A stretch of 64,000 bases of DNA from Pseudomonadota bacterium (GTDB lineage: Bacteria > Desulfobacterota > Binatia > Binatales > Binataceae): the NCBI GenBank assembly GCA_021324455.1, contig JAJPJA010000139.1:70207-134206 (forward strand), given 5' to 3'. A model generated the notes under the pieces. That model made no database searches and had not been told where the DNA came from. It worked only from the letters and a program-made list of their open reading frames with translations. Shown here piece by piece: positions 56,474-64,000 of the stretch. The position numbers and the translations under genes were made by a program. Positions within the stretch are counted from its first letter, which is position 1, and each line of letters starts with the position of its first letter.

Positions 56474-56932
56474 ATGTTGTCAAACAAGGCCAAGTACGCT
56501 CTCAAGGCGCTCCAGGTTCTGGCCAAAGAATACGGTCAGGGGCCGGTCCTTATTTCGGAGATCGCCCGGCGCGAGAGCATGCCGCCCAAATTCCTCGAAT
56601 TGATCCTGCTGGAGCTCAAGAACCACGGCATCCTGCAGAGCAAAAAGGGCAAGGGCGGAGGGTATTTCCTTGCCCGCGCGCCGCAGTCGGTCAGCGTCGG
56701 ACAGGTTGTGCGCCTGATGGACGGGCCTTTGGCTCCCCTGCCTTGTGTCAGCAAAACCTCTTACATGCGCTGCCGCGAATGCCGCGATGAACGCAGCTGC
56801 GGTATCCGCCTGATCATGAAGGACGTGCGCGACGCCACCGCCCGCATCCTGGATTCAACCACGCTGGCCGACGTGCTCAAGCGGGTCGAGGCCGTGGTGC
56901 TGGGCAAGGAAGGGCTGCATTACGCGATCTGA
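56474..56932 (+). CDS. Rrf2 family transcriptional regulator
   Basis: 152 residues. The winged helix-turn-helix spans residues 1-65 (KYALKALQVLAKEYGQGPVLISEIARRE to GYFLARAP). Four cysteines at about 90-110 (PCVS, then CREC, then SCGIR) are placed as iron-sulfur ligands in IscR/NsrR-type proteins. It should sense iron-sulfur status, nitric oxide or cysteine. YezD follows 43 bases downstream and then a phosphate-type porin, so these are likely targets. Confidence 0.9.
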   Translation: MLSNKAKYALKALQVLAKEYGQGPVLISEIARRESMPPKFLELILLELKNHGILQSKKGKGGGYFLARAPQSVSVGQVVRLMDGPLAPLPCVSKTSYMRCRECRDERSCGIRLIMKDVRDATARILDSTTLADVLKRVEAVVLGKEGLHYAI

Positions 56933-57182: not shown

Positions 57183-57303
57183 CGGCGCTGTCGCGGGCTC
57201 AACCGATCGTCGACCAGTCATCTGGAGGCGCGGATGCGGCGTTTGAGGGATCTGACCGGACCACCGGAAGTCTCCCCGTTCACTGCCATTGGGAGAAGCT
57301 TCG

Positions 57304-58752
57304 ATGTTCAAGCAGCGGTGGTCATGGATCCACCTGGCAGCGGCCGTTGCCCTTTGGCTGGCGGTTTCGCCGGCGCTGGCCCAAACCACCGACGCGACGG
57401 TGCGCGAGTTGGAAAAACGGATCGCGGATTTGGAGCGGCAGGTCAGGGCCCTGCAGGCGGCCAGCCAGCGCAAAGACCGCAATCTGCAGGCGGTCGATCA
57501 GCGGGTCAAAGTCCTCGATCGCAAGGTTGACGTCCAGCAGCAGGCGCAGCGCCAACTCACCCGCACCCTGCCCAAAGTCGATTTCAACTACAGGGATCAG
57601 GGCGGTCTGACGCTCAAGAGCACCGACGGCGCCGAACGCTTTACCGTCGGCGGCTGGGTCCAGGCTGACGGCCGCTACTACACCACTCAAGCGCCGGGCG
57701 GGGCGAGCACCTTCCTGATGCGCCGCGTGCGGCCCTACTTCGAGGGTACGATCGACAACTACTACGATTTCCGCGTGATGCCGGACTTCGGTCAGGGAGC
57801 CTTCACCCTGCAGGACGCCTTCGCTGACATCCATTATTTTCCCCAATTGCGGCTGCGCGCCGGCAAGTTCAAGGAGCCGATGGGTCTGGAGCGCTGGCAG
57901 GACGACCGCTGGAACGAGTTCGTGGAACGCGGACTGCCCACCCAGCTGGTGCCGGACCGCTCGATCGGCGCCCAGTTGCACGGCATGCTGCTGCACGACG
58001 TTATCGAGTATCACTTCGGTGTCTTCAACGGATCGACCGACAACGTCGCCACGTCGGATATCGATACCAACAACGCCAAAGACCTGTCCGGCCGGATCTT
58101 CGTGCGGCCATTCGCCACTTATGCCAGCGAGGCTCTGCAGGGTTTCGGAGTCGGCCTTGCCGGAACCTACGGCACGTCGGAAAAGGGTATCGCGCTGGAC
58201 ACTTTGAAGACCGCGGGGCAGAACGTTTTCTTTCAGTACAACAGGACCGCGTTCGCGGCGGGAGACCGCTATCGTTATTCGCCGCAGTTCTATTACTATG
58301 GCGGACCGTTCGGGCTGCTGGGCGAGTTCGTTTACAATTCGCAGAAAATCGGCCGGTTCAATCCCGCGGGCAGCGCCGTCAATCATCAGATTTCCAACTA
58401 CGCCTGGAATCTGACCGCGAATTATGTCCTAACCGGCGAAGATGCCGCGTTCGACGGGATCAATCCGCGGCATAACTTCGATCCGCGAGCCGGCTCCTGG
58501 GGCGCGCTCGAACTGGTGGCGCGCGTGGATCAACTCGTCGTCGATCCCGACGCTTTCAAATACGGCTTCGCCAATCCGTCGCTCTCGGCGGGATGGGCCC
58601 TGGAATGGGGCGTCGGATTCAACTGGTGGCTCTCGCGCCGGCTGAAACTGCAGACTGACTATTCGCGCACCACCTTCCATCAGGGCGCCGCCAACGGCGG
58701 CACGCGCAAGCCGGAAAGCGTTTTTCTCCAGGAACTCCAGCTCATCTTCTGA
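57304..58752 (+). CDS. OprP/OprO-type outer-membrane porin
   Basis: 482 residues from the ATG at 57304, with GGGAGA seven bases upstream. A signal peptide (AAAVALWLAVSPALAQ) ends near residue 27. A coiled coil follows (about 30-85, heptads with ELEKRIADLERQVRALQ). The beta-barrel then runs to the C-terminal aromatic residue (QLIF). GGWVQADGRYY and FKEPMGLERWQDD are typical of the phosphate/polyphosphate porin family. The coiled coil probably trimerises it or spans the periplasm. Its solute cannot be read from sequence. Confidence 0.9.
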   Translation: MFKQRWSWIHLAAAVALWLAVSPALAQTTDATVRELEKRIADLERQVRALQAASQRKDRNLQAVDQRVKVLDRKVDVQQQAQRQLTRTLPKVDFNYRDQGGLTLKSTDGAERFTVGGWVQADGRYYTTQAPGGASTFLMRRVRPYFEGTIDNYYDFRVMPDFGQGAFTLQDAFADIHYFPQLRLRAGKFKEPMGLERWQDDRWNEFVERGLPTQLVPDRSIGAQLHGMLLHDVIEYHFGVFNGSTDNVATSDIDTNNAKDLSGRIFVRPFATYASEALQGFGVGLAGTYGTSEKGIALDTLKTAGQNVFFQYNRTAFAAGDRYRYSPQFYYYGGPFGLLGEFVYNSQKIGRFNPAGSAVNHQISNYAWNLTANYVLTGEDAAFDGINPRHNFDPRAGSWGALELVARVDQLVVDPDAFKYGFANPSLSAGWALEWGVGFNWWLSRRLKLQTDYSRTTFHQGAANGGTRKPESVFLQELQLIF

Positions 58753-58822
58753 GCAACGCGATGCCGGTGCTCCGTCTTCATCAAAAAGTATTCTCGTTTT
58801 CGAGACAAAAACTGACGCGCGG

Positions 58823-58849
58823 TTCCCGCTCTTGGGAATATCCATTCCC
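58823..58849 (+). promoter_or_regulatory. Three half-sites phased at 11 bp (putative activator binding site)
   Basis: TTCCC, GGGAA and TTCCC begin at 58823, 58834 and 58845, exactly 11 bases apart and alternating in direction. The last two form the palindrome GGGAAT-atcc-ATTCCC. A further hairpin-like element TCTCG-tttt-CGAGA lies at 58792-58805. The array centre is about 115 bases upstream of the start point expected from the sigma-54-like element, the usual place for an NtrC-type enhancer. Confidence 0.45.
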
Positions 58850-58927
58850 TAACCCATTGACACGACGCTGAACTGGAAAACTCGCTCCGCTTTTCGGACA
58901 AATTCACCGCCGGCGATGCCTGCCTCC

Positions 58928-58941
58928 GGTCCCGAAATTGC
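58928..58941 (+). promoter_or_regulatory. Sigma-54-like -24/-12 promoter of the MMPL gene
   Basis: GG at 58928 and GC at 58940 are separated by exactly ten bases, in the context CGGTCCC-GAAA-TTGCT. The consensus is TGGCACG-N4-TTGCW; the match is partial in the -24 element and complete in the -12 element. Transcription would start near 58953, leaving a 95-base leader to the MMPL ATG. A sigma-54 activator gene is encoded 3.7 kb downstream. Confidence 0.45.
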
Positions 58942-59047
58942 TAATGTCCTCGCAGATGCGCCGGCCTCTCTTTGAACCCAAAATCCACACCTGAGTTCAT
59001 CATTGCGGCCGCTGCGCGCTTCATGCATTAAGGCGGTGGGTTGAAAG

Positions 59048-61480
59048 ATGACGACCAGGAAAAGGCCGGATGTCGGACATATCGTTTTGCGCTATCGGGC
59101 GTTAATCGGGGCGATTCTGGTTCTTTCTACGGCTTTTATGGCCTATGAGGCCTCGCGCGTCACAATCGGCACTCGTTTCGTGGATTTCTTTCCGCAAAGC
59201 GCGCACAACGTAAAGCTTTACCGGCGCTTCCACCGTTACGGCGGAGCGCAAACGCTCGCCCTGATGCTTCACGTCCGCCGCGGCGACATCTTCAACATCC
59301 CAACGCTGCGGAAGATCCAGGCCATCAACGCCGCGGTCGACCGCCTGCCCGGCGTCAACCATCAGGAGATCTTCTCGCTGGCCTCTTACCGCGTCGCGTA
59401 CGCGGAAGCGGTGGCGGGCGGACTCAACACCAGGCCCTACATGTATCCGGAGGTCCCGACCACCGCCGCCGGAATCAAGGCGCTCAAGGTTCACGTCTTC
59501 GCGCATCGCGAACAACTCGCCAACCTGGTCAGCCCGGATTACAAGAACACTCTGGTGACGGCCTCGTTCAACGAAGAAGGACTCAATTACAGGAGCCTTT
59601 TCGAGCAGATCCAGGGAATCGTCAAAAAATTCCAGGATTCGAATACGGATATCTACGTCGCGGGCGAGCCGGTGGTGCGGGGTTACGGTTATCATTACTT
59701 TCCAGTCATCGTCGCAATATTCTTCGCCGCGATTTTCCTGATGATTGTCACGCTGTACTGGAATTTGGGCGATTATACGTCGTGGTGGGCGCCGATCGTG
59801 ACCGGTAGCTGCTCCGCGATATGGGGCCTCGGCTTTGTCGGCATTATGGGATACAACTTCGACCCCCTGATGCTGGTGGTGCCGTTCATTCTGACCGCGC
59901 GCGACATGAGCCACGGCATTCAATGGCAGCGGCGCTACTACTACATGCTGGAGCAGACGCATCATCGCCGCGCCGCATGTATCGCCACTACCAACTTCAT
60001 GCTGCCGGCGGGTCTGCTCGCAATTTTGGCCGATATCGCGGGGATTATCTTTATCTCCTTTTCGGGAATCACGGTGCTGGACGATATCGCCCGCGCGGGC
60101 ACGGTGTGGCTGGCGGCGAGCCTGGTGATGGTGTTTATCTTCCAGCCGATCATGATGAGTTATCTGCCGCAGCCGCGGCGCAGGGGGCGGCTGGCGGGCG
60201 CAGGCCCGATCGCGCGGCGGCTGCGGCCCGCGGCCGACTGGTTGTGCCGCATTCCGGTAATGCCGGGGCCGGTCCGCAGCGGGCTGCTGATCGGATCGCT
60301 GATATTTCTGCTCGCCGGAATCTTCTCCGGCCTCCACGCGCAGGTCGGTTACACCCACCCCGGCACCCCGCTTTACCGGCCCGGTGCCAAGGTCAACCAG
60401 GATATCGCCGCAATATCCAGATACTTCCCCACCGATGAAGGGTGGGTGATCCTGAGTACCCCGGCTTATCCGGACGCTCAATCGGTGCTGGGTCCGCGAA
60501 CATTGCGGATGGCGGACGATCTGCGCGACTACCTGCTGCGGGACTCGCGCGTCAAACAGGTGGTCACTTTCGCATCGATGGTGATCCGGCCGTTCAACCA
60601 GATGTTTCATTACGGACATCCGAAGCTGTACGCGATTCCGATGAATACCCAGATCGCGGGGAATCTCTGGTATCTGTTTTTGGGCGGCACCGCGCCGGGG
60701 GAGATGGAGCATTATATTTCCAGTACCGCCGCCAACGACACCTGCATCCGCATTCTAATGTCGGACCATACTTACAAAACCCTCAACGACATGCAGAACA
60801 AGCTGGGCGCCTTTGTGAATTCATATGCCGTCCGCAATCCGGGGCTGGCGAAAGTACACGTGATGTATCTGGGCGGAATCGCGGGATTGTACGCCGCCGC
60901 CAACCAGGTTCTGTTCAATCTTGATTTCTACAACATCAGCTTCGTATTGGGATGCGTTTTTCTTTTCTGCCTGATTGCCTTTCGTTCCTTCGTTGGCGGC
61001 ATCCTGTTCGTGTTCGCCTGCGTTCTGGCCAATTTCGGCGCGTTCATCTATCTGCAGGCGCGTCAGATTGGACTGACTATCGACACGGTTCCCGTGATTT
61101 CGCTGGGAATCGGTTTGGGCGTCGACTACGGCATCTACACCGTCTCGCGCATCAGGGACGAGGTAAGGGGCGGGATGCGGCTGGAGGACGCTGTGCCGCT
61201 GGCGATCAGGAGCACCGGCGGCGCGGTGTTCATGGTGATGTGCGTGATGATCGGCGGCATCATCCCGTGGGCGTTTTCGCCCGCGCTGTTCCATAACAAC
61301 ATGAGCGTGCTGCTGGCGGTTTTGATGTTTCTCAACGGAATCGCGGGCGTATTCGTGCTGCCGGCGTTTATCGCCTGGTCGCGCTCGGGATTCATCTGCC
61401 GCTATGAACAAGCCCGCGAGCCGGCACAGCCGATGGCGCCGGCGCTGGGCGCGCTGGGCGGCGCTCATCGGGCGGGTTAG
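59048..61480 (+). CDS. RND/MMPL family transporter
   Basis: 810 residues with the two-fold MMPL layout. TM1 is at about 17-35, and a large extracytoplasmic loop follows to about 220. Five helices come next with VPFILTARDMSHGIQ, then a second loop (about 430-620) and a second helix bundle with VPVISLGIGLGVDYGIYTVSRI. The GxGxDYG segment is the proton-relay type motif of this family. It probably exports a hydrophobic substance or lipid. Its gap upstream holds the sigma-54-like promoter and half-site array. Confidence 0.9.
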   Translation: MTTRKRPDVGHIVLRYRALIGAILVLSTAFMAYEASRVTIGTRFVDFFPQSAHNVKLYRRFHRYGGAQTLALMLHVRRGDIFNIPTLRKIQAINAAVDRLPGVNHQEIFSLASYRVAYAEAVAGGLNTRPYMYPEVPTTAAGIKALKVHVFAHREQLANLVSPDYKNTLVTASFNEEGLNYRSLFEQIQGIVKKFQDSNTDIYVAGEPVVRGYGYHYFPVIVAIFFAAIFLMIVTLYWNLGDYTSWWAPIVTGSCSAIWGLGFVGIMGYNFDPLMLVVPFILTARDMSHGIQWQRRYYYMLEQTHHRRAACIATTNFMLPAGLLAILADIAGIIFISFSGITVLDDIARAGTVWLAASLVMVFIFQPIMMSYLPQPRRRGRLAGAGPIARRLRPAADWLCRIPVMPGPVRSGLLIGSLIFLLAGIFSGLHAQVGYTHPGTPLYRPGAKVNQDIAAISRYFPTDEGWVILSTPAYPDAQSVLGPRTLRMADDLRDYLLRDSRVKQVVTFASMVIRPFNQMFHYGHPKLYAIPMNTQIAGNLWYLFLGGTAPGEMEHYISSTAANDTCIRILMSDHTYKTLNDMQNKLGAFVNSYAVRNPGLAKVHVMYLGGIAGLYAAANQVLFNLDFYNISFVLGCVFLFCLIAFRSFVGGILFVFACVLANFGAFIYLQARQIGLTIDTVPVISLGIGLGVDYGIYTVSRIRDEVRGGMRLEDAVPLAIRSTGGAVFMVMCVMIGGIIPWAFSPALFHNNMSVLLAVLMFLNGIAGVFVLPAFIAWSRSGFICRYEQAREPAQPMAPALGALGGAHRAG

Positions 61481-61561: not shown

Positions 61562-62743
61562 ATGAAGATATCGCCGAAAGCAGCTACTCCCTTTGCGCGC
61601 CAGTTGGCGCGCGGCGGCGGGAAGGTCGATCTCGCCCGCTGCCTGATGGATACCGCCCACGTTATAATCATGGTGCTGGATCGGCTGGGAAGAATTGTCA
61701 GGTTCAATCCCTTCACCGAGGAAATATCCGGCTTCCGCATGGACCAGATGCGCGGCCGCGACTGGTTTTCGAGCTTTCTCCCCGAGCATGAACGCGGCCG
61801 CATGAAAGCGCTGTTCGAGCGCTGTCTGCGCGGGCAGAGCACCGGCCCCATCACCGCCGCGATGCTCACGCGAGCGGGCACCGCGCGCGCGATCGACTGG
61901 CGCGTCTGCGCGTTGCCGGACCGCGGCGCAGCGCCCGCAGGCGTGCTCTGGATCGGCAAGGATATTACGCAGCGGATGCAGGCGGAGCGCGAACTTTATG
62001 AACTCAACAAGGTCGCCCAGCAGCGCGAACGGCTGGCCGACGTCGGCGCCATCGCCGCCCAGATTGTTCATGACGTCGGCAATCCGCTGGCGGCTCTGTC
62101 GATGCAGGCCCAGTTGATCCGGCGGCGCGCGCGCGAATACCCCGATCAGCCGGTCGGATCGGTGCTCAAATCGGCCGAGCAGATGGTGATGGAGCTGCAT
62201 CGGCTGGAATCGCTGATCCGGGAATTCATGAACTTCGCCCGCGAACAGCGTCTGCATCTGGGGCGCATCGATCTGACCCGGTTTCTGTCCGAGATTGCCG
62301 CGCTGTGGAGCCAGGTCGCCTTTGCGCGCGGCATCAATCTTATCTTTCACGCTCCCGACACTCCGCTGAGCGTGCGCGCGGACGAGGAAAAGATTCATCG
62401 CGTGCTCGACAACCTGATCAAAAACGCGGTCGAGGCGATCGGCGACGCCGGCGGTCGCATCGCGATCTGCGCGGGCGCCTGCGGCGGCGGCCGGGTGCGG
62501 ATATCGGTGGCCGATACCGGCCCGGGCATCGCCCGGGACGTCGCGGTGTTCCGGCTGTTCGAAAGCACCAAGGCCGAAGGATCGGGCCTGGGTCTGGCGG
62601 TGGCCCGGCAGATCGTGCTGGCGCATGGCGGCTCGATCTATCACGAAGCCGCTTCCCCCCATGGCGCCGTGTTCCATTTCGAGCTGCCGATCGAAGGTCC
62701 CACCCCGGACGACGCGGCCGCGCGCCCGCCGAGAAGCTTATGA
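61562..62743 (+). CDS. PAS-domain sensor histidine kinase
   Basis: 393 residues without clear membrane segments, so probably cytoplasmic. The PAS domain is at about 25-140 (VIIMVLDRLGRIVRFN to GVLWIGKDITQRM). The phosphoacceptor is His170 (IVHDVGNPLAALS). The kinase domain has NLIKNAVEAIG (N box), DTGPGI (G1) and GSGLGLAV (G2). It overlaps the response-regulator start (ATGA) and is about 80 bases after the MMPL gene, so sensor, regulator and transporter form a unit. Confidence 0.93.
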   Translation: MKISPKAATPFARQLARGGGKVDLARCLMDTAHVIIMVLDRLGRIVRFNPFTEEISGFRMDQMRGRDWFSSFLPEHERGRMKALFERCLRGQSTGPITAAMLTRAGTARAIDWRVCALPDRGAAPAGVLWIGKDITQRMQAERELYELNKVAQQRERLADVGAIAAQIVHDVGNPLAALSMQAQLIRRRAREYPDQPVGSVLKSAEQMVMELHRLESLIREFMNFAREQRLHLGRIDLTRFLSEIAALWSQVAFARGINLIFHAPDTPLSVRADEEKIHRVLDNLIKNAVEAIGDAGGRIAICAGACGGGRVRISVADTGPGIARDVAVFRLFESTKAEGSGLGLAVARQIVLAHGGSIYHEAASPHGAVFHFELPIEGPTPDDAAARPPRSL

Positions 62744-64000
62744 ACCCGCCGCGCCAAGCCTCAGGACGGATTCTCATCGCCGATGACGAAGCGTCGATCC
62801 GCGGCGGCCTGGTCGACGTGCTGACCGATGAGGGCTACGAGGTGACCGGCGTGGCCAACGGGGCCGAGGCGATCGGCGCGATTGCCCAATGCGGTTACGA
62901 CATTGTGGTGACGGACCTGCGGATGCCGGGGGTTGACGGGCTCGAAGTGCTGCGCCGCGTGCGCGAGCTTTCGCCCCAGACCCTGGTGCTGCTGATCACC
63001 GCCTACGCCTCGGTGGAGACGGCGGTTGAAGCGCTGCGCAACGGCGCCCACGACTACATCCTCAAGCCGCTCATCGTGGAGGACGTGCTCAGCAAGATCC
63101 ATCGGCTGGTCGAATACCGCCGGCTGGCGTGGGAGACGCAGATGCTGCGGCGCGAAATCGCCTCGCGCTATGAACTGGATCAGATGGTCATCCGGTCGCC
63201 CGCGATGCGCGAGATTTCCGGCATGATCGAGAAGGTCGGCCCCACCAACAGCACGGTTCTGATCACCGGCGAAAGCGGAGTCGGCAAAGAGGTGGTGGCG
63301 CGCGCCCTGCACGCCGCCAGCACCCGGCGCGACCAGTTGTTCCTTCCGGTCAATTGCGGGGCGATACCGGAGAATCTGCTGGAAAGCGAGCTGTTCGGCC
63401 ACGCGCGCGGCGCCTTCACCGGCGCCGCGGCCGCGCATGAGGGGCTGTTCCAGCGCGCGCGCGGCGGCACCATCTTTCTCGACGAGATCGGCGACTTGCC
63501 CGCCGGCGTTCAGGTCAAGCTGCTGCGCGCGATCGAACGGCGCGAGATCCTGCCGCTGGGCATCAATACGCCGGTGATGACCGATGTGCGGATTATCGCG
63601 GCGACCAACCGCAGGCTGCACGACGCGGTCCAGGAAGGGAAGTTCCGCGAGGATCTGTTTTACCGCCTCAATGTCGTGGGTATCGAAGTACCGCCGCTGC
63701 GCCAGCAGCGCGAGGCGATTCCGGCGCTGGTCGAATACCTGATTCGGCGCCACAACGCCGATTTGAAAAAGAGCTACCGCGGCGCGGACAACGCCACCAT
63801 GCGCATTCTGATCGCTCATTCATGGCCGGGCAACATCCGCGAGCTCGACAACGTAATCGAGCGCGCGATGATTCTGGGCAACGGGGAGTGGATCACGCCC
63901 GCCGACCTGCCCCCCGCCATCCGGCACGACGCCGAAAACCCGCACAGCGTGGCCGACAATCTGCGCGAAGCGATCCGGGCCTACGAAAAGATCCACATCG
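62740..64000 (+). CDS. NtrC-family sigma-54 response regulator, C-terminus cut off
   Basis: This frame runs to the window edge and is missing from the ORF track. The receiver domain is at about 8-125 with DD (15-16), phosphoacceptor Asp59 (VVTDLRMPG) and Lys109. The AAA+ domain has Walker A GESGVGKE (177-184), GAFTGA (224-229, the sigma-54 contact), FLDEIGDLP (Walker B) and an Arg-finger block (FREDLFYRLNV). About 420 residues are visible and the DNA-binding helix-turn-helix is just beyond the end. The ATG overlaps the kinase stop (ATGA). It should activate sigma-54 promoters when phosphorylated by the adjacent kinase. Confidence 0.95.
   Translation, partial: MNPPRQASGRILIADDEASIRGGLVDVLTDEGYEVTGVANGAEAIGAIAQCGYDIVVTDLRMPGVDGLEVLRRVRELSPQTLVLLITAYASVETAVEALRNGAHDYILKPLIVEDVLSKIHRLVEYRRLAWETQMLRREIASRYELDQMVIRSPAMREISGMIEKVGPTNSTVLITGESGVGKEVVARALHAASTRRDQLFLPVNCGAIPENLLESELFGHARGAFTGAAAAHEGLFQRARGGTIFLDEIGDLPAGVQVKLLRAIERREILPLGINTPVMTDVRIIAATNRRLHDAVQEGKFREDLFYRLNVVGIEVPPLRQQREAIPALVEYLIRRHNADLKKSYRGADNATMRILIAHSWPGNIRELDNVIERAMILGNGEWITPADLPPAIRHDAENPHSVADNLREAIRAYEKIHI

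Follow-up and report, generated by a model that had tools for sequence, protein, structure and literature searches.

The window analysed here, a stretch of 64,000 nucleotides on contig C152 of the 5.28 Mb genome (G000) of an uncultured soil bacterium, carries an intergenic region of 295 bp between a Porin_O_P gene and an MMPL transporter gene, and two regulatory genes follow the latter (Table 1). The MMPL protein is a HAE3-like member of the RND superfamily that matched PF03176 above the cut-off, and its match to TIGR00921 fell below the cut-off of that model. After a gap of 81 bp lies the gene of a histidine kinase with the architecture PAS-HisKA-HATPase (Pfam), which shortly overlaps the gene of an NtrC-type response regulator. 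The regulator has a receiver, an AAA+ domain, and a Fis-type HTH; it matched PF00072, PF00158, and PF25601 in Pfam, and its full-length sequence, completed from the genome, contained the GAFTGA motif and the C-terminal HTH, which is the domain composition of a sigma-54-dependent NtrC-type response regulator. The best curated matches in NCBIfam were AtoC (432 bits against an equivalog cut-off of 714) and NtrC (400 bits), and since all NCBIfam equivalog scores were far below the cut-off, the regulator is none of these proteins. Its nearest solved structures are of the NtrC1, ZraR, and NtrX types. One intact RpoN with the RpoN box ARRTVAKYR is encoded in the genome. Transporters of the MMPL/HAE3 type reach up to nine copies per genome in the family (G000 and its relatives); of these, only the copy in the cluster of the window is flanked by genes for a kinase and a regulator.

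Table 1. Genes and candidate control elements around the MMPL gene (positions within the window)
Feature	Position	Strand	Remarks
Rrf2-type protein gene	56474-56932		upstream of the intergenic region
Porin_O_P gene	57289-58752		upstream neighbour of the intergenic region
Intergenic control region	58753-59047		295 bp; MMPL gene is the probable target
Distal dyad TTCTCGTTTTCGAGAC	58791-58806		one mismatch to TTCYC-N6-GRGAA; probable first activator site
Proximal dyad TTCCCGCTCTTGGGAA	58823-58838		exact TTCYC-N6-GRGAA; probable second activator site
Third half-site TTCCC	58845-58849	+	with GGGAA at 58834 closes the inverted repeat GGGAAT-N4-ATTCCC
-24/-12-like element CGGTCCCGAAATTGCT	58927-58942	+	GG 58928-58929, GC 58940-58941
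Predicted transcription start	near 58953		predicted from the sequence
MMPL transporter gene	59048-61480	+	810 aa
Histidine kinase gene	61562-62743	+	393 aa
NtrC-type response regulator gene	62740-64000	+	runs past the window end; full length about 458 aa

The preliminary description of this region, drawn from the single sequence, had proposed a unit of three half-sites in 11-bp phase (TTCCC 58823, GGGAA 58834, TTCCC 58845), preceded by a separate element TCTCG-TTTT-CGAGA (58792-58805) and followed by GG-N10-GC with TTGCT (58938-58942), and every one of these motifs was found at its position. The window holds one exact triple TTCCC-N6-GGGAA-N6-TTCCC, where the half-site frequencies predict 5e-5, and no other exact copy was present in the 5.28 Mb genome. 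The lone exact dyad TTCCC-N6-GGGAA was found four times in the genome versus three times for the reversed control pattern, and a single dyad, taken alone, is common enough to be due to chance.

Two orthologous clusters were identified (G001 and G002), both from the same genus and with MMPL proteins 83–84% identical, so that the cluster comparison covers three species. As the motif had first been spotted by eye, an unbiased search was run over the three orthologous upstream regions with all 1024 five-base half-sites at 13 gaps, that is, 13,312 gapped palindromes. TTCTC-N6-GAGAA ranked first with the lowest sum of mismatches (7); this value was reached by 1 of 3473 shuffled triples when any pattern was allowed, and none fell below 13 when the same copy spacing was required in all three regions. 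The copies lie in pairs, with starts 32 bp apart in the window (TTCTCGTTTTCGAGAC and TTCCCGCTCTTGGGAA), 32 bp apart in G001 (TTCCCATTGCTGGGAA and TTCTCTGATTTGAGAA), and 33 bp apart in G002 (TTCTCAGTTCCGGGAA and TTCTTTATTCTGAGAA). The presumed separate element TCTCG-n4-CGAGA turned out to be another copy of the dyad, the distal one, which becomes apparent when it is read from one base leftward (TTCTC 58791) as TTCTC-N6-GAGAC. The conserved unit ahead of the MMPL gene, as read from the aligned upstream sequences, is a pair of TTCYC-N6-GRGAA dyads spaced by about 32 bp, and the 11-bp step follows from the geometry of one dyad. The TTCCC at 58845 had no counterpart in the upstream regions of G001 or G002, where the array had been expected to recur before the orthologous MMPL genes; the unit of three half-sites is confined to the window genome and does not define the system.

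Upstream of the orthologous promoters the dyads are conserved, as upstream activating sequences of an EBP are, and their occurrence is selective. The 57 other MMPL upstream regions showed at least five mismatches to the dyad pair, the same as random pieces, and among 41 family genomes the pair (at most one mismatch, gap 16 or 17) was found only at the three MMPL promoters and at one further site on contig C57 of G000. The upstream neighbour of the cluster differs in the three species, which indicates that the dyads travel with the MMPL gene; in G001 the dyads remain with MMPL beside an extra membrane-protein gene (L039, at about -1147 to -254 relative to the MMPL start). This gene, TauE/SafE-like by eye, separates the porin from the MMPL promoter in G001 and is absent from the window.

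The distribution of the regulatory genes is equally narrow. Relatives of the MMPL protein are widespread in the family, but the cluster of MMPL, kinase, and regulator turned up in three genomes only, G000, G001, and G002, as did the co-occurrence of the dyad pair, the PAS histidine kinase, and the NtrC-type regulator. Within the family the kinase is confined to this one genus; no close relative outside the genus was present in the genome collection, where the next best protein shared 29% identity. The HTH of the regulator is near-invariant across the three species, and the co-occurrence makes this protein the most likely predicted binder of the dyads.

The candidate promoter was judged in the same way. 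GG-N10-GC has its sole copy on the + strand of the intergenic region in CGGTCCCGAAATTGCT, and each of the three orthologs has the form GG-N8-TTGCW on the stretch from the dyads to the start codon (CGGTCCCGAAATTGCT, AGGCATCCCATTTGCA, and CGGTCTCATAATTGCA), compared with 3 of 57 other MMPL upstream regions; by shuffling, the chance of such an occurrence was 3.4, 5.5, and 4.4% in the three orthologs. Conservation of GG-N10-GC with TTGCW and the RpoN encoded in the genome are features expected of a sigma-54 promoter. The match to the full consensus TGGCACGNNNNTTGCW is weak, with four mismatches in the window, three in G001, and five in G002, and sites with at most three mismatches numbered 77 in the window, below the shuffled counts. 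Because of its four mismatches and this window-wide abundance, the lone element carries little meaning and gains weight only through the comparison; the poor match to the full consensus is the weakest link of the reading. The distance from the element to the proximal dyad is about 105, 55, and 116 bp in the three orthologs, a variation that can be tolerated by looping. The earlier proposal of a sigma-54 enhancer and promoter with its own NtrC-type activator accordingly held in kind, through the conserved dyads and GG-N8-TTGCW, and failed as to the unit of three half-sites.

Phosphorylated NtrC-type regulators bind their sites, oligomerise, and activate RNA polymerase-sigma-54 via looping. Along these lines, a local two-component sigma-54 enhancer/promoter quite probably drives the MMPL gene, with regulator binding, sigma-54 use, the operon, and looping all inferred from sequence features. 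The sensor kinase would phosphorylate the regulator, which would then bind both dyads; since these are about three helical turns apart, they lie on one face of the DNA, and the bound regulator could oligomerise. Its GAFTGA loop would contact RNA polymerase-sigma-54 at the -24/-12-like element through DNA looping and drive transcription from about 58953. Both regulatory genes come after MMPL in the same orientation, so that this promoter is likely to supply its own regulators as well, and their probable co-transcription with MMPL would lead to self-reinforcement.

The weak -24/-12 match leaves room for a reading in which the regulator of the cluster indeed binds the dyads and transcription starts from another sigma-54 promoter or a sigma-70 promoter. 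A perfect TTGACA directly past the array (58858-58863) would fit it, as would the much better conserved sigma-54-like promoter, TGGCATGAGATTCGCT or TGGCACGAGTTTCGCT, of another gene of the genus. However, the TTGACA has no following -10, a sigma-70 scan of 58700-59100 passed no promoter, all three orthologs carry GG-N8-TTGCW, and the regulator belongs to the type that activates sigma-54, which makes this reading rather unlikely. The dyads might instead serve a different regulator, for example the upstream Rrf2-type protein, whose gene is near the locus in the window genome and in G001 and of which G002 carries an 86% identical copy. In G002, however, that copy is on a separate contig while the dyads remain with MMPL, kinase, and regulator, and the size and symmetry of the dyads suit a dimer site of a Fis-type HTH, which we counted against the Rrf2 protein; its involvement is judged improbable.

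It is more improbable by far that the inverted repeats are RNA hairpins, a porin terminator, or a chance cluster. TCTCG-N4-CGAGA could fold into a hairpin of 5 pairs, accompanied on the minus strand by a weak T-run, but the region folded no better than its shuffles (z -0.61) and the porin's strand has no terminator-like site, on which grounds the hairpin or terminator reading was rejected. The dyads also persist while the upstream genes differ, and the spacing-matched shuffles speak against chance.

The favoured arrangement, a local two-component system acting on sigma-54, resembles the NtrC/NtrB, AtoC/AtoS, and ZraR/ZraS systems in its kinase and receiver-AAA+-HTH regulator, in the dyads upstream of a -24/-12 promoter, and in a target that adjoins the regulator genes. 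The mechanism itself is textbook and the type of switch ordinary. The recognition word of NtrC differs from the TTCYC-N6-GRGAA dyad, and judged by titles and abstracts, no report of an EBP site with TTCCC/GGGAA or TTCTC/GAGAA was found in the literature searched, so that the binding word appears to be undescribed. In Desulfovibrio vulgaris, EBP genes adjoin their own sigma-54 promoter, EBP regulons mostly comprise one to four operons, and the DVU2956 binding site has three conserved half-sites (PMC4641369). The window triple is similar to that site in the arrangement of half-sites, whereas its own third half-site does not recur in the other two species. By analogy with the three half-sites of DVU2956, the third half-site may add affinity in the window species. 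We put forward only tentatively, as a possibility that is rather doubtful, a genus-restricted two-component system with an undescribed word paired at three helical turns and a third overlapping half-site gained in the window species. The analysis gives an uncharacterised two-component system of an uncultured genus both a probable binding site and a probable target, connects a specific regulator with one copy among several MMPL paralogs, and corrects by a three-species comparison the site definition drawn from a single sequence.

A wider set of targets was sought with the dyad. Exact TTCYC-N6-GRGAA occurred at 42 sites in the three genomes versus 10 for the reversed control; these lie mostly within long open frames. 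Single dyads thus have no predictive value and were rejected as a genome-wide regulon. On contig C57 of G000, a double dyad (gap 17, one mismatch) and a sigma-54 site (two mismatches) precede the gene of P0007. P0007 is small and secreted and matched nothing in Pfam. Its sigma-54-like promoter, about 60 bp upstream of the start codon, is nearly perfect and strongly conserved (TGGCATGAGATTCGCT twice and TGGCACGAGTTTCGCT once; L175, L176, and L177). G001 and G002 share the sigma-54 site, but conservation does not extend to the dyads, which makes this a weak second target, and it was dropped as a firm one. Upstream of the gene, G001 and G002 have another inverted element, around CATGTAG...ACATG, which suggests that the gene may be under a different activator there.

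In G002 an exact dyad, TTCCCAAGGCTGGGAA, is located just after the regulator gene (C9:20358-20373; L040, at about +5207 relative to the MMPL start), with a 2-mismatch -24/-12 site about 79 bp on, followed by a small lipoprotein-like frame, after which comes a DegP/HtrA-like gene (names from sequence features). This site and that on C57 of G000 are leads only as further candidate targets, through which the genus-restricted system may also control small envelope proteins. In G001, two copies of TTCCCGGAACCGGGAA, possibly a repeat, were also seen at the end of a contig (C16; L165, 61-76 and 214-229), 153 bp from each other.
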